Source: Raoultibacter phocaeensis (GTDB lineage Bacteria; Actinomycetota; Coriobacteriia; Coriobacteriales; Eggerthellaceae). Taken from it: DNA of 64,000 nt. The notes beneath the pieces are model-generated. The model made no database searches. It worked only from the letters and a program-made list of their open reading frames with translations, and had not been told where the DNA came from. Numbering within the stretch: the stretch's first letter is position 1; each line of letters begins with the position of its first letter. This document shows, in pieces, positions 9,457 to 40,637 of the stretch. The stretch is taken from assembly GCF_901411515.1 (NCBI RefSeq), contig NZ_CABDUX010000001.1, positions 1,302,001 to 1,366,000 of the forward strand, given 5' to 3'. The translations under genes were made by a program, and so were the position numbers.

Positions 9457-9486
9457 TTGACAATTGTTGGGGGGGGGTGGCATTAT
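9457..9486 (+). promoter_or_regulatory. Promoter with G9 tract in spacer, likely phase-variable
   Basis: A consensus -35 TTGACA (9457-9462) and a -10-like CATTAT (9481-9486) are separated by 18 bp that contain nine consecutive Gs (9469-9477). Homopolymer length changes in a spacer alter promoter strength in several pathogens. Losing one G would give the optimal 17 bp. It sits directly ahead of the riboswitch and the surface-protein gene. Confidence 0.65.
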
Positions 9487-9524
9487 TGCGATTATATCTA
9501 TGACCTCGCAGGTCATGGAACGTG

Positions 9525-9605
9525 TCCGAACCATGCAAACCCGTCGAAAGGCGGCGGCGCAAAGCTATAGGGGCCCACCCGCGGAGGCGGCCAGCCAGTT
9601 GCAGG
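9525..9605 (+). promoter_or_regulatory. Cyclic di-GMP-I (GEMM-I) riboswitch aptamer
   Basis: The conserved GEMM-I features occur in order. These are TGCAAACC, a stem capped by a GAAA tetraloop (CGTCGAAAGGCG), GGCGCAAAGC, a GGGGCC strand, and GGCGGCCAGCCAGTTGC at the 3' side. A TGACC/GGTCA hairpin (9501-9515) lies just upstream. The aptamer is in the 5' leader of the giant surface protein, a usual target of this class in clostridia. A terminator hairpin follows at 9650, so the switch probably acts on transcription elongation. Whether it turns expression on or off is not evident. Confidence 0.88.
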
Positions 9606-9649
9606 TCTACGGAAGGTTCTCCCTTCGAATCGGACCCGTGCACCTCGCC

Positions 9650-9683
9650 GGCCGAATCCTCGCGATTCGGCCGTTTTGCGTTT
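9650..9683 (+). terminator. Leader terminator, riboswitch expression platform
   Basis: An 8-bp stem (GGCCGAAT, 9650-9657, with ATTCGGCC, 9665-9672) is followed by GTTTTGCGTTT. It lies between the c-di-GMP aptamer and the ribosome site of the surface-protein gene, the position expected of a regulated intrinsic terminator. Confidence 0.75.
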
Positions 9684-9717
9684 GGATGCCGGAACCGCAA
9701 GGGAAAGGAGTCGGGAA

Positions 9718-12700
9718 ATGGCAATGACCCAGCAAGCCTCAAGCACGACGAAGGAGGCGAGATCGAGAAAGCTGCTGTCGCTGTTCATGGCGCTGGTCAT
9801 GGCTGCGACGCTCATGATCCCCCAAGCGGCGTGGGCCGACGAGCCCGAGGGCGCGCCCGCCCAATCCGAGCAGGACCAGACGGCTCCCGTTGAAGGCACG
9901 GGCGACGTGGCGACCGGGACGACCGCGCCCGAGCAGCCGACTCAGCCCGAGCAGCAGCCGGCAGCGCCCGAGCAGCCACAGGCTCCGGCACCCGAACAGC
10001 AACAGGCTGTTCCCGAAGCCGAAGGCGAAGGCGGCAACGTGGCGGCACCCGTCTCGACGCTCGAAGCGCTCGACACCCTCCAGGTCGTCGGGCCCGTTCA
10101 GAGCGCCGATCCCGCCAAGCCCGACAACGAAAAGAAATTCTACAACGTGCTCTACGCGAACGGCAAGAACGTCGTCGTCGAGCCCGCAACCGAAGGGCTC
10201 AAGGTGACCGTCGACGGCACGGCGTACAGCTTCGCCAACAACTCGGCTTCGTACTTCAAGGGTGCGACCGACGGCCTGACCATCTTCGCGGGTGGGGACA
10301 GCGCTGCGACCGGCGATTCCTCGATCACCGTGAAAGGCGGCGCGAAGGTCGGCGCCATCTTCGCAGGCGGCAACAAGGCCGACTACGCGGGGACGGCGAC
10401 CGTCGTCGTCGAAGAGGGAGCCGAAGCCGGCACCATCTACGGCGGCGGCCTGACCCCCGCAGGCGACAAGACGGGCACCGCGAAGACCACCGCTTCGACC
10501 GTTACCGTAAACGGCAAGGCCGGCATCGTCTACGCCGGCGGCATGGCATCGGTCGGCCCGACGATTAACGAGGTCGTGACGTTCAGCGCGGACAAGCCTG
10601 CAGAAACCACCGCGAAGAACTTCGTCGGCTCCTCGAAGGTCACCATCAACGGCGAGGCGGCGTGCTACTTCGGCGGAAGCTACTCCTACGGCGGCGTCGG
10701 CACGGTCTCGTGCGAGCTGAACGGAACGCTCACCGGATCGTACAGCGCCATCGCGGGCACCAACGGCTTCCGCGGCGACGCGTCGATGACCGTCGGTGCG
10801 AACGGGAAGATCACTGGCCTCCTCTACATGTCGATGCGCGGCTACATCGGCGATACGAGCCTCGTTAACAACGGGAGCATCGGCGTTCTCACGCTCCTGC
10901 CCGATGGCGCAAACGTTTCCACCTACGGAAACACCGACGTGGTCAACGCGGGCACCATCGCGCGCGCCCACCTCGATTGCGGGTGCGGGAAGGAAGCGGT
11001 TTCGGGGAGCGCCGTCACCCCGTATCCCGAGACGATCACCGTAGACGGCACCGTGCGGATTCGCACCACGACGATCGACGAGAAAAACGGCAACGTTGAA
11101 AATACGGCCAAGACATCGACCCTCCCCGAGGGCACCGCGCTGTCGCTCTTGAACGGTGCTACGTACGACGGCTATTCGGTCATGATCGGCGAGAAGGGCT
11201 ATGCCGATTTCGCCGCCGCAGCTCAAGCGGCGCAAGCGGGCGACACGGTAACGCTTACTGTCGATCAAACGTCCGAACCCGTCACGTTTGCAAACAATGT
11301 GACCGTCGATCTCGGCGGCCACACGTTGACGATCGCGGGCGAATCGGCTGCTACCGCTTACGGCGTACAGTTCGCGGGGGAGGGCGAAAACGTTCTCAAG
11401 AACGGCACGCTTCTCGATGAGCGCAGCAACGGTAACCAGACGGCAGGTTGGAAGACCGTTCATGTAGCGAACAAGGCGAACCTCGCTACCCAAGATGTCG
11501 CCATCAAGGCTTATAAGCCCGATACGGCTTATAACTACAATTACCTGATTTATGCAGGCGGAAAAGACGACACGAATGCGAAAGCTCTCTCGCTTGGCGC
11601 GGGCACCGAGCTTTCAAACCTCGATAACGCGTCGAACACGAGCGAGACGTACGGTGCAGTCGGCATCTCGCTTATCGGAACGACCACGAACGCAGCAACA
11701 GTTGCCGACAAGGTCAAACTTACGATCGCAGAAGGCGTTTCTATCAATACGATGGGCTACGCCATTGCCGGAAACGGTACCTATCATGGAACCGAAATCA
11801 CCATCGACGGCGGCACGATCACCAGCACCGGCTCCGCCGCGATCTACCATCCGCAGGCTGGCACGCTGACGCTTAACGGCGGTACCCTCGAGGGTACGAC
11901 GGGCATCCAATTCTGCTCCGGCGAAGGTACGGTCAACACCGAGTTCCAGTTCAACGGCGGAACGGTCAAAGGCGTTGGCGTCGATGAGCGCGCAATCAAG
12001 ACAGGCGACGGACTCGTCAGCGACGGATCCGCGCTCTCGCTTGTGAACCGCGGCTATCCGGGTGGCACGCCTTCGATCACCATCAACGGCGGCACGTTCA
12101 CGTCGGCTAACAACGATGCGGTCCTCGCGTACACGTGGGAAAAAGGTGCGGGCGACGCGTACGAGGCGACCGAGTGGGCTCAGGCGGCGGAGAAAATCTC
12201 CATCACCGGCGGCACCTACTCGAGCGACGTGAGCGCGTACGTTGCCGAAGGCTATAACTGCACGCAAGACGATGACGCCTATACCGTTGCTGCTAAACCG
12301 ATGGTTGCCGAAATCGTCGGCGGCGATCAGTTTTCGAGCCTCGCAAAGGCGATCGATGCAGCAGGACCAACTGACACGGTGAAACTCCTCGACAACATTA
12401 CTCAGTCCGACGGCATCGAGATTTCCAAAGATGTTACGATCGATCTCGACGGCAAGACGTTTACGGTAACCGACGGCAGCAATATCAACAATCGCGGCAT
12501 CAAGCTTTTAAGCGGGCATCTGACTATTACAAACGGTACGATGGTCGCCGAAGGCGAGCCGACTGGCGTTCAGGCTTCCGATGCTTCTTCCGGTACCGGG
12601 TTGTACGGTACGCTCCGCTTGGAGGGCGGCACGCTCGACATGGAGAGCGTGACGCTCAAGAACGGAAGGCCGTGGGGGCTGAACGTCAAGCTCAGCGGTG

Positions 12701-15700
12701 CTGCGAGGGCGAACTTGACGAATGTCGTAATCGAATCAGAGTACGGTGGCGGCATCGAGGTGGCGCATCCCGAGGCGGAGGCAGTCCTTAACGATTGCGC
12801 GTTTACCCAAAAGCATTACTTCGATTGGACAAGCACCTGCGTAAGCGTGAGCAACGGCGGAAAAGCGATTGTCAACGGAGGAACGTACGTTTCCGATGGA
12901 TGGGCGCTGTATGTGTTTTCTTCGGGAGGCACGCTCGACGTAAACGACGGTACATTCCAGGGAGCTAAGGGCGTCCTTAAAGCAGACCTCGATGCGACAT
13001 CTTATCCTGAGGGCGCGGTTGTCGTTTCCCTTAAGGGAGGGGACTATACGGGCGCTATCGGCGAGGGCGGCAACGGTACGAACAAATCCATAGCTATCAC
13101 CGGTGGAACGTATACCGAGGACCCGGCAGCGTACGTTGCAGAAGGGTACGATTGCGCTGAGGCTGAAGGAAAGTTCCACGTTTCATCGCATAAAGTTGCG
13201 CAGGTTGGCGATACGGCCTACGAAACTCTCCAAGCAGCCTTCGATGCAGCGACCGAGGGCAAAACCGTCGTGCTGCTCGACAACGTCGATCTTGGGGCTA
13301 CGGCAGCAACCGTTGCGACGGGTGCTACGACGAATCTCGACCTAGCAGGTAAAAAGGTGACGGGTAGCGCCAAGCAGACGGTTCTTGTCCAAGGCGGGCT
13401 GACCATCACGGACTCCGCAACCAGCGGCACAATCGAAAACACCAATACGAGTGCGAACGCAGCCGTTTTCGTACCCGGGGGCAAAATTGTTCTCGAAAAG
13501 GGTTCCATTAACGGCGCAACGCGTGGCGTCTGGCTTTTCGGTCCAGCAGCCAGCCTTTCAATGACGGGAGGCAGCGTTGAGGGAGCGTCGAAGATCGGCG
13601 TACAGGTATCCGGCAAATCCGGAGCCGAAACTTCTGCAGTAATCTCCGGCGGCACCGTGGTCGGTGGCAAGCAGTCCATCGCCATCTACGGTTGCCAGGG
13701 TGCTGACGACAATACGCTTCCTGCCGCGAGCTATCCTGCGACTGTCGAGATCACGGGCAATGCGGTCATCGAGTCTCCCAATGGGGGAGCCGATTTGGCT
13801 GAAGCAACCGTTACGGTCTTTGGCAAAGGTGCTGTACTCGAGGTATCCGGCGGTACCGTTAAGCACGATTCGAAATTCGGGGCGATCAGCGGAAACGGAT
13901 TTGCCAAAAACTACGGCACGAGCATCGCCGTTTCCGGTGGCGTAATTCAGGCTACCGGACCCGACGGCCCCGCTGTCTATCATCCGCAGGTTGGCGAACT
14001 CACCATCACCGGTGGTGAAATCTCCGGCGCTACGGGCGTCGAAATGCGTGCAGGTACGCTTTATGCGTCCGACAATGCGACCATTCAGGGCTCCGGCGAG
14101 TTCAGCACCAAGAGCAACACAAACGGCGGCGCCACCAACGGCGTCGGCATCGCCGTAGCTCAGCACATCACCAAGCAGCCCGTCGAGGTGCATGTTTCGG
14201 CCGGCACCGTCTCGGGCGGCACGTACGCCTTCTACGAGGGCAACCCGGAAGGGAACGGCGCCGAGGACATCGCCAAGGTCTCCCTCGACATCGCGGGCGG
14301 ATCATTCTCCGCAACTTCGGAGGAAGCCGGCGCTGAAGCCGTCTACAGTGCGGACTGCACTGGCTTCATCACCGGCGGCTCCTACTCGAGCGATGTGACC
14401 GCGTACTGCGAAGGCGAATATCAGTGCGTGCAGGATGGCGACGTCTACAAGGTGAGCGAGAAACCCAAGGTCGCCGAAGTCAAAGGCATACAGTACGCCA
14501 ATCTCGACGCGGCGATTGTTGCAGCCGGGGACGGCGATACGGTGACGATGATCAACGATGCCGTGATCGACGCTTCGCAGATCAAGATGAACACCAAGGA
14601 CGACTCGCCGTTCTACGCCGAGGTCGACAGCAAGAGCATCACGCTCGACCTCGCGGGCAGGGCGATCACCTTCGATCAGTCGAAATGCGATATAACAAAC
14701 CGCGTTACGACGGCAGACGCGTTCACCGACGAGCGCGGCCTGATCTACATTGCCGCAGGTGCCGGCCTGACCGTGAAAGATAGCGGCGAAGGCGGAATCA
14801 TCAAGTCCACGTCTCCTGCGGGGGATACGTACTCGCTTCTGTCGCTCATCCAGAACTACGGCGTATTCACGATGGAAAGCGGAACGATCACGGGTGCCGA
14901 GCGAGTCTACTACCTCGCCACCATGTACGGCTCCGCCTCCCATACCACCATCGAAGGCGGCACGCTCGACAACCAGTGGGGCACTGAAACCGACGGGGGC
15001 ATCTGCCTCTCGGGCAACGGCACCACCACGTATGCGGGCTACCGGCTCGACATAACGGGCGGCACGCTCAAGGGCGGCGAGCAGACGCTGTACCTCCCGA
15101 GTGCGGGCACCACGAACATCTCCGGCACGCCTGTGCTCGAAGGTACCGGCCGCGCGATTGAAATAAGGGCTGGCCAGCTGACGATCGACGGCGGTACGTT
15201 CACTGCCACGGCTCCCCGCCTGCAGAACGCGACGGCCACCTCGGGCGGAACCGGTGCCTATACGGGCGCCATCGTCGCGGTCAAGCACAAGGGCACGAGC
15301 GACAAAGCATACAAGGGTGCCGTAAACGTGACGATCAACGGCGGCACGTTCACGAACGCCAACGGCGATGCGATCGCCGCGAAAAACGAGATCGTTGACC
15401 AAGCGATCGCAGCAGCCAACAACATCGAATTCACGATCGCCGGCGGTTACTTCTCTGGCGGCATCAACAACGGCAATCTCGTCGGTCCCAGCGCAGCGCA
15501 AGGCGTTGACAAGCTGAGCGTTTCGGGCGGCTACTTCACGGCCGATCCGAGCGCGTACCTTGCGGCCAAGAAGGTCGTGCTTCCAAGCGATACGGCCGGC
15601 TACCCGAACATGGTTGCAGAAAGCAAGGCTACGACCGATGCGAAACCAGTTGTGACCGAGCCGACCGTAACGGTCGATCCCGATGCAGATCTCGGTGACG

Positions 15701-17691
15701 AGACGGCGAAGCAAGAGATCGTCGACAAGGTCGCAGAAACGCAGGTTGAAGGCCTCAACGCGTACGCGAACGAAGCGGCCGAGAACCTGACGCAGACGAC
15801 GGTCGACAGTGCCAAGGAAGCGCTCAAGCAAGAGGTTTCCGTCGGCCAGACCGATACCATCACCGTCTTCGTCCAAACGTACGTGGAGATCAAGCCAAAG
15901 GCGTTTGTCGAAGATTCTGCGAGCAGCACCAAAGCGCTTACGGTCGACATCACGCCCAAGTCGCGCGTAGTGGCGTCGACGGCGACTGACGCCAAGGACA
16001 TCAAGACCGATAACACGGCTGGAGATAAGAACGCCGTCGTGGTCGACGAGCAGACGCTCAACGTGACCAGCTCCACGGTCATCTCCGTGCCGCTGCCCTC
16101 CGGTTTTGTCAACGCGACGACGGATCCTGTATTTGCGAAGCATCTTAAGAGCGCCGATCTCGCGTATGTGTATCAAGCGGTTGTAAGCGGCGATGCTACC
16201 GCCGGCTTTGCCGCCACGTTCACGAACCCCAACGGGTTCAGCGAGTTCACGCTTACCACCGCTGATGAAAGCGTTGCTTCGATCGGCGGGACCAACTACA
16301 CGACGTTGCAGGCTGCCGTTAACGCAGTAACCGACGGCCAGACCATCAAGCTCCTGAAGAACGCTGCGGGCGCGACCGTTTCCAAGGCCGTCTCGTTCAC
16401 GCTTGACGCGGGCGGCTTCACCCCCGGCGACATCGTAGCCGGTTCTGGGTTCGTGCTGGCGGTTGAGAACGGCCTCTACACGGTGACGGCGGTCGTCCCC
16501 GTAACCGGTGTCACGCTCGACAAGACGAACCTCGAGCTTACCGAGGGCGGCACTGCGACCCTCGTAGCAACGGTGGCGCCTGATAATGCAACCGACAAGA
16601 GGGTGACGTGGACGTCTTCCAACGAGGCAGCGGCCACGGTGTCGGCAAGCGGCGTAGTCACCGCCGTCAAGGCAGGTACGGCAACCATTACGGCGAAAGC
16701 CGGCGATAAGACGGCCACGTGCGCTGTCACCGTCAATGCCAAGGACGTGCCGAAGCCTCCCGCGCAGGCTTCGCGCCTCGGCGGTGCCGACCGCTACAAG
16801 ACGATGGCGCTCATCTCGCAGACCGCTTTCCCCGAAAACGGCTCCTGCTCGACGGTCATCGTCGCGCGCGGCGACAACTTCCCCGACGCTTTGGCCGCCG
16901 CAGGCCTCGCGGGCGTCACGGGCGGACAGGTGCTCCTCACCGAGACCGGTACGCTCACGGCCGAGACCAAGGCCGAGATCAAGCGCCTCGGGGCTCAGAA
17001 GGCCTACGTGATCGGCGACACCTACTCGGTCACGGCGCGCACGTTCAACGAGATCAAGGCAATCACTGGCAGTGCCGAGCGCCTCGGCGGAGCCGACCGC
17101 ATGGACACCGCCCTCAAGATCTACCAGGCGGGCAAGGGCGGCTGGGGAACGACGGCTATCGTGGCCACGGGCAAGAAGGCCGCCGACTCGCTTTCGGTGT
17201 CGCCGATATCCTACGCGGCGAAGGCTCCGATCTTCCTCGCCGACAACGACGGCAATTTGTCCGCCGCCGCACTCGATGCGATTGCGAAGGGCGGGTTCAC
17301 TAAGGTCCTCGTGCTCGGCGACAAGTACTCGGTGTCCAACTCCGCGTTCAACAAGGTGAAGGCGCTTGTCTCCAACACCGAGCGCATCGGCGGGGCCGAC
17401 CGCTACGAGACTTCGCGGCTCACGGCCCAGCAGGCTCTGAAGAACGGATTCGGCTGCGAAGTCGTCTCGCTTACGGCGGGCCGCGAGGGCAAGTATGCTG
17501 ACGCCCTCGTTGCCTCGTCGCTCAGCGGCAAGTCGTTCTCGGTGCTGCTGCTCGTCGATGACGGCGCGACCACGTGTATCGACAAGGTGCTTGCCCCCAA
17601 CAAGGCGCAGGTCGAGAACGCCTACGTTCTCGGCGACAAGTACACCGTGTCCAACGAGCTGTTCGCAGCCATCGAGAAGGCCGTCAAGTAG
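9718..17691 (+). CDS. Giant beta-helix surface protein with Ig-like and cell-wall-binding repeats
   Basis: The product is 2657 residues. A signal peptide (residues 1-40, cleaved after AWA) is followed by a Pro/Glu/Gln-rich linker (41-115). A very long beta-helix follows, rich in GG(T/S)-type turns, to about 1970. Five related blocks begin near 491, 864, 1158, 1586 and 2186 (pattern YxxLxxAxxAAxxGDTVxLL). The earlier ones end in GGTYSSDVSAYVAEGY-like caps. A bacterial Ig-like (BIG2) domain spans about 2260-2342, and three CW_binding_2 (PF04122) repeats (RLGGADRY, RLGGADRM, RIGGADRY) occupy 2353-2657. It is probably an adhesin or host-glycan-binding protein held non-covalently on the wall, as there is no LPXTG. 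AAAGGAG precedes the ATG by seven bases. Confidence 0.93.
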   Translation: MAMTQQASSTTKEARSRKLLSLFMALVMAATLMIPQAAWADEPEGAPAQSEQDQTAPVEGTGDVATGTTAPEQPTQPEQQPAAPEQPQAPAPEQQQAVPEAEGEGGNVAAPVSTLEALDTLQVVGPVQSADPAKPDNEKKFYNVLYANGKNVVVEPATEGLKVTVDGTAYSFANNSASYFKGATDGLTIFAGGDSAATGDSSITVKGGAKVGAIFAGGNKADYAGTATVVVEEGAEAGTIYGGGLTPAGDKTGTAKTTASTVTVNGKAGIVYAGGMASVGPTINEVVTFSADKPAETTAKNFVGSSKVTINGEAACYFGGSYSYGGVGTVSCELNGTLTGSYSAIAGTNGFRGDASMTVGANGKITGLLYMSMRGYIGDTSLVNNGSIGVLTLLPDGANVSTYGNTDVVNAGTIARAHLDCGCGKEAVSGSAVTPYPETITVDGTVRIRTTTIDEKNGNVENTAKTSTLPEGTALSLLNGATYDGYSVMIGEKGYADFAAAAQAAQAGDTVTLTVDQTSEPVTFANNVTVDLGGHTLTIAGESAATAYGVQFAGEGENVLKNGTLLDERSNGNQTAGWKTVHVANKANLATQDVAIKAYKPDTAYNYNYLIYAGGKDDTNAKALSLGAGTELSNLDNASNTSETYGAVGISLIGTTTNAATVADKVKLTIAEGVSINTMGYAIAGNGTYHGTEITIDGGTITSTGSAAIYHPQAGTLTLNGGTLEGTTGIQFCSGEGTVNTEFQFNGGTVKGVGVDERAIKTGDGLVSDGSALSLVNRGYPGGTPSITINGGTFTSANNDAVLAYTWEKGAGDAYEATEWAQAAEKISITGGTYSSDVSAYVAEGYNCTQDDDAYTVAAKPMVAEIVGGDQFSSLAKAIDAAGPTDTVKLLDNITQSDGIEISKDVTIDLDGKTFTVTDGSNINNRGIKLLSGHLTITNGTMVAEGEPTGVQASDASSGTGLYGTLRLEGGTLDMESVTLKNGRPWGLNVKLSGAARANLTNVVIESEYGGGIEVAHPEAEAVLNDCAFTQKHYFDWTSTCVSVSNGGKAIVNGGTYVSDGWALYVFSSGGTLDVNDGTFQGAKGVLKADLDATSYPEGAVVVSLKGGDYTGAIGEGGNGTNKSIAITGGTYTEDPAAYVAEGYDCAEAEGKFHVSSHKVAQVGDTAYETLQAAFDAATEGKTVVLLDNVDLGATAATVATGATTNLDLAGKKVTGSAKQTVLVQGGLTITDSATSGTIENTNTSANAAVFVPGGKIVLEKGSINGATRGVWLFGPAASLSMTGGSVEGASKIGVQVSGKSGAETSAVISGGTVVGGKQSIAIYGCQGADDNTLPAASYPATVEITGNAVIESPNGGADLAEATVTVFGKGAVLEVSGGTVKHDSKFGAISGNGFAKNYGTSIAVSGGVIQATGPDGPAVYHPQVGELTITGGEISGATGVEMRAGTLYASDNATIQGSGEFSTKSNTNGGATNGVGIAVAQHITKQPVEVHVSAGTVSGGTYAFYEGNPEGNGAEDIAKVSLDIAGGSFSATSEEAGAEAVYSADCTGFITGGSYSSDVTAYCEGEYQCVQDGDVYKVSEKPKVAEVKGIQYANLDAAIVAAGDGDTVTMINDAVIDASQIKMNTKDDSPFYAEVDSKSITLDLAGRAITFDQSKCDITNRVTTADAFTDERGLIYIAAGAGLTVKDSGEGGIIKSTSPAGDTYSLLSLIQNYGVFTMESGTITGAERVYYLATMYGSASHTTIEGGTLDNQWGTETDGGICLSGNGTTTYAGYRLDITGGTLKGGEQTLYLPSAGTTNISGTPVLEGTGRAIEIRAGQLTIDGGTFTATAPRLQNATATSGGTGAYTGAIVAVKHKGTSDKAYKGAVNVTINGGTFTNANGDAIAAKNEIVDQAIAAANNIEFTIAGGYFSGGINNGNLVGPSAAQGVDKLSVSGGYFTADPSAYLAAKKVVLPSDTAGYPNMVAESKATTDAKPVVTEPTVTVDPDADLGDETAKQEIVDKVAETQVEGLNAYANEAAENLTQTTVDSAKEALKQEVSVGQTDTITVFVQTYVEIKPKAFVEDSASSTKALTVDITPKSRVVASTATDAKDIKTDNTAGDKNAVVVDEQTLNVTSSTVISVPLPSGFVNATTDPVFAKHLKSADLAYVYQAVVSGDATAGFAATFTNPNGFSEFTLTTADESVASIGGTNYTTLQAAVNAVTDGQTIKLLKNAAGATVSKAVSFTLDAGGFTPGDIVAGSGFVLAVENGLYTVTAVVPVTGVTLDKTNLELTEGGTATLVATVAPDNATDKRVTWTSSNEAAATVSASGVVTAVKAGTATITAKAGDKTATCAVTVNAKDVPKPPAQASRLGGADRYKTMALISQTAFPENGSCSTVIVARGDNFPDALAAAGLAGVTGGQVLLTETGTLTAETKAEIKRLGAQKAYVIGDTYSVTARTFNEIKAITGSAERLGGADRMDTALKIYQAGKGGWGTTAIVATGKKAADSLSVSPISYAAKAPIFLADNDGNLSAAALDAIAKGGFTKVLVLGDKYSVSNSAFNKVKALVSNTERIGGADRYETSRLTAQQALKNGFGCEVVSLTAGREGKYADALVASSLSGKSFSVLLLVDDGATTCIDKVLAPNKAQVENAYVLGDKYTVSNELFAAIEKAVK

Positions 17692-37997: not shown

Positions 37998-38036
37998 AAT
38001 GGTCAGGGTATGGTGGGCGGTGTGGAAGGCGTTGCG

Positions 38037-40637
38037 ATGGCGGAAGGCGAAGCGGGCGCTGAACGACGGGCGAACGAGTTGATCGATTCAGGCGGCGAGG
38101 GCCGCGGAGATGCCGTGGAGGGCTTCGTGCTCAATGCGGTCATGGACAACATGAGTTCGAACGTCTATATCACCGATCCCAAAACCGATCGGATCCTCTT
38201 CATGAATCAGAAGATGAAAGAGGATTTCGGAATCGAACACCCCGAAGGTGCGGTGTGCTGGCAGATCCTGCAGAAGGATCTGCGCGAGCGCTGCCTGTTC
38301 TGCCCGATCGACGAGCTTTCGCGCCCCGATGCGCCGTCGGTTATTCAATGGGAAGAGGAGAACGCGCTCACGGGCCGAACGTACACCAATTACGACAGCC
38401 TGATCACATGGCTTGACGGATCGCTCGTTCATCTACAGCAATCGATCGACACGACCGACTGGAAAACCGCCAACATCGACGAACTGACCGATATGATGAC
38501 CCGCCGTGCAGGCAAATCGGCTTTGCGTGCGACGCTGAACAAAGCAGCTGAAGAAAACAGGATCGTATCGGTGTGCCTGTACGACATCAACCATCTCAAA
38601 AATGTGAACGACCGCTATGGCCATGCCGAAGGAGACCGGCTTATCCGCACCGTTTCGCGTGCTGCATCGAAGGCGTTTAGGAAAGACGATTTCGGGTTCC
38701 GCTTGAGCGGCGATGAGTTCGTCGGAGTCATTCACGCCGACGCAGCGGAGACAAAACGCCGCATCGACGATGCCCTCGCCGAACTTGCCGCGGTATCGCG
38801 TACGCAGGCGTATCCGTACCTCGTGGGGTTCTGCTACGGCATTGTCGAAGTGCTGCCGGGAAGCGACCTCACCTCGACCGAGATTATCGCCCGCGCCGAT
38901 CAGCGTATGTACGATCAGAAGCGCCGTTTCCACATCGAGGAGAACGAGCGAAGGGCTCGTACCGAAAAACCGCACGTTTCCGATGTCGAAGATTTCGAAT
39001 ACGACAAGGACAGCCTGCTCGATGCACTCGAGAAGAGCACCGACGATTACCTCTACGTATGCAATATGAAAACCGGCGTGTTCCGCTACCCGAAAACGAT
39101 GGTCGAGGAGTTCGGATTGCCGGGGCAGGTCATCGAGAACGCTGCTGCCATCTGGGGCGCAAAAGTACATGAGAGCGATAAGCGGGTGTTTCTCGAGTCG
39201 AACCAGGAGATCGCCGATGGGCGCACGACTTCGCACTGCGTCGAATACCGCGCGATCAACCGCCGCGGCGAATGGGTGTGGCTGCGGTGCCGCGGCCACC
39301 TTATCCTCGATTCCGCAGGCGCTCCCGAGCTGTTCGCGGGCATCATCACAAACCTGGGCAAAAAAGAGAAAATCGATCATCTGACCGGGCTCCTTTCCAA
39401 GTACGAGTACGAGGAAGAAATCAACCGCCGCATCGCGGATGATCCCGGGCGGCGCTTCGGCATCATGGAGCTCGGCATCGACGATTTGCGCCACGTCAAC
39501 GATCTGCACGACCGCACCTTCGGCGACGAGGTCATCCGCATCACGGCCCAGAAAATCCAATCGTTGCTGCCACCGGGCGCTTCGGTGTACCGCCTCGACG
39601 GAGACGAATTCGGCGTGATACTCGAAAACGCCGATCGGGAAGCGCTGTACCGGTTCTACGGCGTGATCGACGAAAGCTGCCAGAGCATGCAGGAGTTCGA
39701 CGGCAAACGGTTCTACTGCGCACTTTCCGCAGGATGCGCCTGCTATCCCGAAGATGCCGAAACCTATCTTGACCTTGCGAAATACTCGGGATACTCGCTC
39801 GAATACGCCAAATCCCATGGCAAGAGGCGCTGCGTTTGCTTCACGCAGGACATTCTCGACGAACGGGCACGCGAGCTGAAGCTCGTCGAGCATCTGCGCT
39901 CGAGCGTGGAAAACGGGTTCGCGGGATTCAGCCTGTGCTACCAACCTCAAATCGACATGCGCAACGCATCCGTCACCGGAGCCGAAGCGCTTGCACGGTT
40001 CACGTGCGACGGGCTGGGGGCTGTGTCGCCGATCGAGTTCATCCCGCTTTTAGAGAAAACGGGGCTCATCATACCGGTGGGCATGTGGGTGCTCAAGACC
40101 GCCGCGACGCAGTGCAGGGCATGGACCGAGCTCAAACCCGATTTTGTCATGAGCGTCAATCTTTCGTACCGCCAAATCGACAGCGATTCGCTCGTGCCGT
40201 TCATCGAAGAGGTGCTCCACCTCTCGGGACTTTCCCCGAAAAACCTCGTCATCGAGATGACCGAAAGCTACTTCGTTTCGGAAGACAAGCCGGTCAAGGC
40301 CGTGTTCGACCAGATCAGAAACCTCGGCGTCCGAGTCGCCATGGACGACTTCGGAACGGGGTACTCGGCCCTCGGTATGCTGAAGAAATCACCGGCCGAT
40401 ATCGTGAAGATCGACCGCGCGTTCGTGGCCGGCATCCAGGCCAGCACGTTCGACGCGACGTTCATCAAATTCGTTGTCGAACTGTGCCACGATGTGGGTA
40501 TCGAAGTGTGCCTCGAAGGCGTGGAAACCGATGGGGAGCTCGAGGTCGTCAGCTCCATGGGCCTCGACTACATCCAGGGCTTTTTGTTTGGGCGTCCGTA
40601 TCCGCCCGACGAGTTTTGCCACCGCTTCCTGTCGTAA
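38037..40637 (+). CDS. PAS-GGDEF-PAS-GGDEF-EAL cyclic-di-GMP signalling protein
   Basis: The product is 866 residues and soluble. A PAS-like sensor (about 30-150) is followed by GGDEF domain 1 (150-300, active-site loop RLSGDEF), a second PAS-like domain (320-440), GGDEF domain 2 (445-600, loop RLDGDEF) and an EAL domain (620-866). The EAL domain has GAEALARF, DDFGTGYSAL and EGVET intact, so phosphodiesterase activity is likely. GGDEF 1 is near consensus and may still make c-di-GMP, while GGDEF 2 looks degenerate. It would set c-di-GMP levels read by the riboswitch at 9525. I prefer ATG 38037 (GGAAGG upstream) over an in-frame ATG at 38010. Confidence 0.9.
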   Translation: MAEGEAGAERRANELIDSGGEGRGDAVEGFVLNAVMDNMSSNVYITDPKTDRILFMNQKMKEDFGIEHPEGAVCWQILQKDLRERCLFCPIDELSRPDAPSVIQWEEENALTGRTYTNYDSLITWLDGSLVHLQQSIDTTDWKTANIDELTDMMTRRAGKSALRATLNKAAEENRIVSVCLYDINHLKNVNDRYGHAEGDRLIRTVSRAASKAFRKDDFGFRLSGDEFVGVIHADAAETKRRIDDALAELAAVSRTQAYPYLVGFCYGIVEVLPGSDLTSTEIIARADQRMYDQKRRFHIEENERRARTEKPHVSDVEDFEYDKDSLLDALEKSTDDYLYVCNMKTGVFRYPKTMVEEFGLPGQVIENAAAIWGAKVHESDKRVFLESNQEIADGRTTSHCVEYRAINRRGEWVWLRCRGHLILDSAGAPELFAGIITNLGKKEKIDHLTGLLSKYEYEEEINRRIADDPGRRFGIMELGIDDLRHVNDLHDRTFGDEVIRITAQKIQSLLPPGASVYRLDGDEFGVILENADREALYRFYGVIDESCQSMQEFDGKRFYCALSAGCACYPEDAETYLDLAKYSGYSLEYAKSHGKRRCVCFTQDILDERARELKLVEHLRSSVENGFAGFSLCYQPQIDMRNASVTGAEALARFTCDGLGAVSPIEFIPLLEKTGLIIPVGMWVLKTAATQCRAWTELKPDFVMSVNLSYRQIDSDSLVPFIEEVLHLSGLSPKNLVIEMTESYFVSEDKPVKAVFDQIRNLGVRVAMDDFGTGYSALGMLKKSPADIVKIDRAFVAGIQASTFDATFIKFVVELCHDVGIEVCLEGVETDGELEVVSSMGLDYIQGFLFGRPYPPDEFCHRFLS

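Follow-up and report, generated by a model that had tools for sequence, protein, structure and literature searches.

In a Raoultibacter genome of 3.86 Mb in two contigs (G000), a giant CWB2-anchored surface protein is probably placed under two layers of control, namely a promoter prone to slippage and a terminator riboswitch of the c-di-GMP-I family. Both layers lie in the window, i.e., the whole 64-kb stretch of DNA that was analyzed. The genus of the genome bears out the coriobacterial host proposed by a first-pass annotation of this DNA, and the coordinates of that annotation held as well, except for the start of the aptamer, which cmscan places slightly differently, at 9524. Throughout the text, G001 designates R. 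timonensis and L-numbers designate individual loci. The elements of the leader and the gene that follows are arranged as listed here:

9457 to 9462, + strand: -35 hexamer TTGACA from the promoter scan, identical in R. timonensis
9469 to 9477, + strand: G9 homopolymer within the -35/-10 spacer, candidate tract for slipped-strand phase variation
9478 to 9486, + strand: extended -10 element, TGG CATTAT, from the promoter scan
9497 to 9519, + strand: short hairpin in the interval between promoter and aptamer, from the fold
9524 to 9606, + strand: c-di-GMP-I riboswitch aptamer (RF01051, 47.6 bits)
9594 to 9648, + strand: antiterminator-like hairpin predicted to compete for the aptamer 3′ strand 9594-9606, from folds and thermodynamic inference
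9649 to 9683, + strand: intrinsic terminator with a 10-bp stem and a T-rich tail, from the terminator scan
9704 to 9710, + strand: Shine-Dalgarno sequence AAAGGAG, read from the sequence
9718 to 17691, + strand: gene of a secreted wall protein of 2657 aa, ATG at 9718

The two layers would act in series. On the one hand, slippage of the G9 tract would shift the distance between the -35 and -10 hexamers (18 nt at G9, 17 nt at G8) and move promoter activity up or down in a heritable and stochastic manner. On the other hand, every initiated transcript would bear the c-di-GMP-I aptamer in its leader. Binding of c-di-GMP would lock the aptamer and deprive the competing hairpin of the 3′ strand, upon which the terminator would form and transcription would stop before the gene; at low c-di-GMP, a fraction of the transcripts would read through. 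Expression would consequently need both the tract length and the c-di-GMP level to be permissive at the same time.

The aptamer of this leader almost certainly belongs to the c-di-GMP-I family. The first-pass annotation had recognized a GEMM-I (c-di-GMP-I) aptamer, and comparison with Rfam by cmscan confirms it, with a match to RF01051 at 9524-9606 (+) that reaches 47.6 bits (E 3.3e-6), exceeds the gathering score of 35 bits and spans model positions 1-87 of 87. No other Rfam family scored above threshold in the 64-kb window. Three nucleotides of Vc2, G20, C92, and A47, which we take from its crystal structures to be the ligand-contacting ones, were mapped onto the leader; under these presumed equivalences, G9535 and C9602 align with G20 and C92, and, as a point against the proposed control, the position equivalent to A47 is a G here, as it is in L003, L005, L010, and L021. 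The intrinsic terminator expected ahead of the ribosome site was also found: the terminator scan delineates CGGCCGAATC-CTCGC-GATTCGGCCG followed by TTTTGCGTTT, with a stem at 9649-9673 and a tail extending to 9683, upstream of AAAGGAG and the ATG. An expression platform is present downstream of the aptamer, and control of the 2657-aa gene is very likely terminator-based.

The direction of this control was examined by equilibrium folding of two orthologous leaders, on which the predicted OFF logic is based; the locked aptamer state was computed by folding the downstream part alone. In the free aptamer, the 3′ strand (9594-9606) pairs in the competing hairpin up to 9648, a longer form of which also pairs into the 5′ arm of the terminator. 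Locking the aptamer raises the local terminator probability from 0.43 to 0.99, and from 0.03 to 1.00 in the R. timonensis leader. Since locking favors the local terminator, the folds lean toward c-di-GMP turning the gene off rather than on. The opposite arrangement, in which both layers are alike but the ligand prevents termination and turns the gene on, as in the class II adhesin riboswitches of Clostridium difficile, is unlikely, despite having several points in its favor. Five sibling leaders (L004, L005, L013, L016, and L020) do follow an ON design, their terminator being built from the 3′ strand of the aptamer, the terminator of the window already forms in ~43% of the ligand-free ensemble, and two C. 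difficile adhesins, CD2831 and CD3246, increase with c-di-GMP (PMC11477304). However, the terminator stem is local in both Raoultibacter leaders, where it uses no aptamer sequence, and its probability increases upon aptamer locking.

The promoter upstream of the aptamer is likely, as judged from its sequence, to be slippable. The promoter scan returned one site, of the sigma-70 type, in which TTGACA (9457-9462) is separated by 18 nt from CATTAT (9481-9486), for 10 of 12 matches overall; the -10 hexamer, preceded by TG, has just four of six consensus matches. Shuffled sequences gave 0.1 promoter sites on average, vs. one in the real leader. The G9 tract (9469-9477) makes up half of the spacer and is the sole run of at least seven G or C in the 64-kb window. 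In the whole genome, both strands together contain 28 occurrences of the G9 pattern, i.e., ~3.6 per million positions per strand, and the probability that one of them would lie by chance within the spacer of a GEMM-I promoter, of which the genome has two, was estimated by hand at ~7 in 100,000. Because G9 already provides a workable 18-nt spacer, the tract may merely tune the promoter. The possibly phase-variable promoter of the first-pass annotation nevertheless appears plausible, and this reading is strengthened by the sister species, by other genera and by the G9 tracts found across the genome.

The orthologous leader of R. timonensis retains CCTTGACA, the G9 tract, the aptamer, the terminator, and the Shine-Dalgarno sequence, and the flanks differ. 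The sequence immediately 3′ of the tract has diverged between the two Raoultibacter leaders, and the geometry is different in R. timonensis, where the spacer measures 15 nt at G9. The protein encoded behind this leader has ~1930 aa, with CWB2 and Big_2 domains. At a distance of ~5 kb, R. timonensis has a second promoter, TTGACATCTTTC-G9-TATCAT, with a related surface protein but no riboswitch behind it; the two G9 spacer promoters of this species are L155 and L159 (G001:C1:2550090 and 2555198), one of them with the riboswitch.

Among 138 Eggerthellaceae genomes, 14 contain GEMM-I, and four GEMM-I leaders have a spacer tract of G9 or G10: that of the window, that of R. timonensis, and two in G102, which belongs to another genus of the family. 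G102 carries tracts of G10 and G9 in the spacers directly before two of its four GEMM-I leaders, ahead of secreted proteins, and the genes of its remaining two have C9 or G9 inside their coding sequence. The promoter pattern TTGACA-G7+-TANNNT matched 14 times in the 138 genomes, and the reversed pattern did not match at all. Corresponding promoters of two congeneric species (L151 and L152) have G10 and G11, and the overall spacing is kept through a compensating change beside the tract. Other features of the GEMM-I leaders were recorded along the way. At L020 (G126:C2), a candidate start codon ATG is directly followed by G9, which could serve as a translational phase switch. GTCGC replaces the consensus GACGC in L008, L014, and L017 (genera g32 and g60), and the early ORFs of L014 and L017 resemble SipW-type signal peptidases. 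L063, L088, and L091 each have a tandem pair of GEMM-I aptamers, the second of which reads GGAAAGC and not GCAAAGC. Beyond riboswitches, G004, G032, G095, and G105 contain 115-207 G9 matches per genome (overlapping counts), which indicates that poly-G tracts are common across Eggerthellaceae; in G004, a dense G-rich stretch at 225 kb accounts for some of these matches.

Contigs of 84,980 species were scanned for G8 followed by the aptamer core, which gave 45 matching stretches. Most of these are chance matches, and just 13 loci have an Rfam c-di-GMP-I or c-di-GMP-I-GGC aptamer; several but not all of the 13 have the tract in a promoter spacer. Eubacterium sp. S30_Bin6 has promoters of the form TTGACA-N10-G8-TATAAT and TTGACA-N9-G10-TATAAT, and Emergencia sp. 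has one of the form TTGACA-N9-G9-TATAAT; homologous clostridial promoters carry G8, G9, and G10. One Lachnospiraceae and one Omnitrophota genome offer less clear cases. Whole-genome searches for TTGACA-G6+-TATAAT gave three sites in Eubacterium, every one of which leads into GEMM-I, and two in Emergencia, one of which does so; neither genome contained the reversed pattern. The clostridial leaders combining a G tract with GEMM-I precede proteins with signal peptides, and they were counted as one origin because the loci are closely alike. The pairing of a G-tract promoter with a c-di-GMP-I aptamer recurs in distant lineages, unrelated gut bacteria among them.

G runs of at least nine number 25 in the Raoultibacter genome, 24 of exactly G9 and one in-frame G12, the G9 tracts being mostly located in the 5′ region of a gene or close to it. 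At least seven (L030, L031, L033, L034, L036, L043, and L046) are out of frame and split surface-protein-like genes: the upstream frame ends shortly past the tract, and a long one begins in a different register. The reading frame is uninterrupted across the tract at L029, L032, L035, L044, and others. Such a mixture is as expected of slipped-strand contingency loci, even if assembly error may contribute to the mixture. Among the remaining tracts, that of L024 (G000:C1:219304-219312) immediately precedes the start of a PAS-GGDEF protein in which the LGGDEF motif is intact and which may be a phase-variable diguanylate cyclase, and that of L048 (G000:C2:1418126) lies within a gene that is LicD-like by sequence resemblance alone. 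The tracts of G9 and above share one strand per half-contig (minus up to 890 kb and plus after 986 kb on C1, plus up to 858 kb and minus after 1.05 Mb on C2), and GC skew is positive on the strand that bears the tract of the window; together, these observations suggest that all of them are on the leading strand.

Two further explanations were weighed. The leader could hold an ordinary c-di-GMP riboswitch behind a constitutive promoter whose G tract is fixed and invariant in cells, as might be read from the length of exactly G9 in both Raoultibacter species (one genome per species) and from the same length in 24 of the 25 genomic tracts. This is rather improbable, given that homologous or related promoters carry G8 to G11, that slippage is known to occur at long runs of G, for instance at Neisseria porA, and that many G9 tracts interrupt the frame of surface-protein-like genes, as would make sense only with slippage (or assembly error). 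Homopolymer errors of the assembly could in turn account for both the G9 lengths and the broken frames, in keeping with 24 of 25 runs called at exactly 9 and none at 10 or 11. However, one in-frame run of 12 was called, so the lengths are not capped at 9, and the R. timonensis, G102, and clostridial assemblies show G8-G11 at the same promoter position. The spacer tract would be real even if its length were off by one, and this explanation is very improbable.

The product of the ORF at 9718-17691 agrees with the giant wall protein of the first-pass annotation: it has 2657 aa with a signal-peptide-like N-terminus read from the sequence, many repeats, a Big_2 domain, and three C-terminal CWB2 domains (PF04122, E 4.6e-36 over three stretches). 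Its wall anchoring is, going by these domains, of the CWB2 kind, and no sortase motif was seen in the protein. An adhesin fold was considered and dropped, the AlphaFold2 model of residues 300-749 having a mean pLDDT of 39. No relatives of the whole protein were found in the contig collection of 84,980 species, nor did plasmid records yield anything similar. The Raoultibacter genome has 33 GGDEF-domain matches above threshold, from which c-di-GMP signaling is expected and the ligand is plausible. By script, a GGDEF-type motif was found in or near 18 of 30 GGDEF loci examined, some of which overlap. An 875-aa ORF of the window (38010-40637) has two GGDEF matches. The second GEMM-I of the genome, L001 (G000:C1:715948-716031), lies upstream of a hybrid histidine kinase with two receiver domains, and its promoter is without a G tract.

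A broader proposal can be advanced tentatively, i.e., that the pair forms a recurrent AND-gate of surface proteins, joined more than once (in Eggerthellaceae, in Emergencia-group Clostridia and perhaps in Lachnospiraceae/Omnitrophota), and set in Raoultibacter within a genome-wide poly-G contingency system, one member of which is the diguanylate cyclase gene that begins at a G9 tract. If true, slippage in Raoultibacter would set promoter state and signal level alike. Under the two-layer control itself, heritable bet-hedging by DNA slippage and graded sensing of a second messenger by RNA would be joined in less than 250 bp before one surface protein, and the two layers would be experimentally separable through simple changes of length or ligand. 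The results also suggest that phase variation through poly-G tracts is a major trait of the Eggerthellaceae, common human gut bacteria; no description of it was found in the literature searched.

Phase-variable promoters with a homopolymer in the spacer are known from Neisseria porA/opc and Bordetella fim, which share with Raoultibacter a run of G or C between the -35 and -10 hexamers of a surface-protein gene and differ from it in having no riboswitch downstream. In Eggerthella lenta, phase variation by megabase inversion has been described (PMC13174815). The literature searched yielded nothing on a c-di-GMP riboswitch or homopolymer phase variation in Eggerthella/Coriobacteria, nor on slipped-strand mispairing combined with a c-di-GMP riboswitch. 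Stacking a c-di-GMP riboswitch on phase variation is known in C. difficile through DNA inversion, and no G-tract version was found in the literature searched. The C. difficile adhesins CD2831 and CD3246 likewise are surface proteins under c-di-GMP riboswitches, but these are of class II and ON with ligand, and the available part of the source describes no phase-variable promoter (PMC11477304). At cmrRST, a class II riboswitch (ON) and the invertible cmr switch also stack stochastic and c-di-GMP control on one transcription unit (PMC8844915), with the differences that the inverted element has its own promoter and that regulators are controlled instead of a surface protein. The flgB leader of C. 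difficile, in which the Cd1 c-di-GMP-I riboswitch (OFF) is followed by the invertible flagellar switch (PMC5386303, PMC8844915), similarly sets a class I termination riboswitch in series with a phase-variable element within one 5′ region. Its variation, however, relies on site-specific DNA inversion by RecV, acts after initiation and downstream of the riboswitch, and targets flagella, whereas in Raoultibacter the G tract is situated ahead of the riboswitch, within the spacer of the promoter, and the target is a wall protein.
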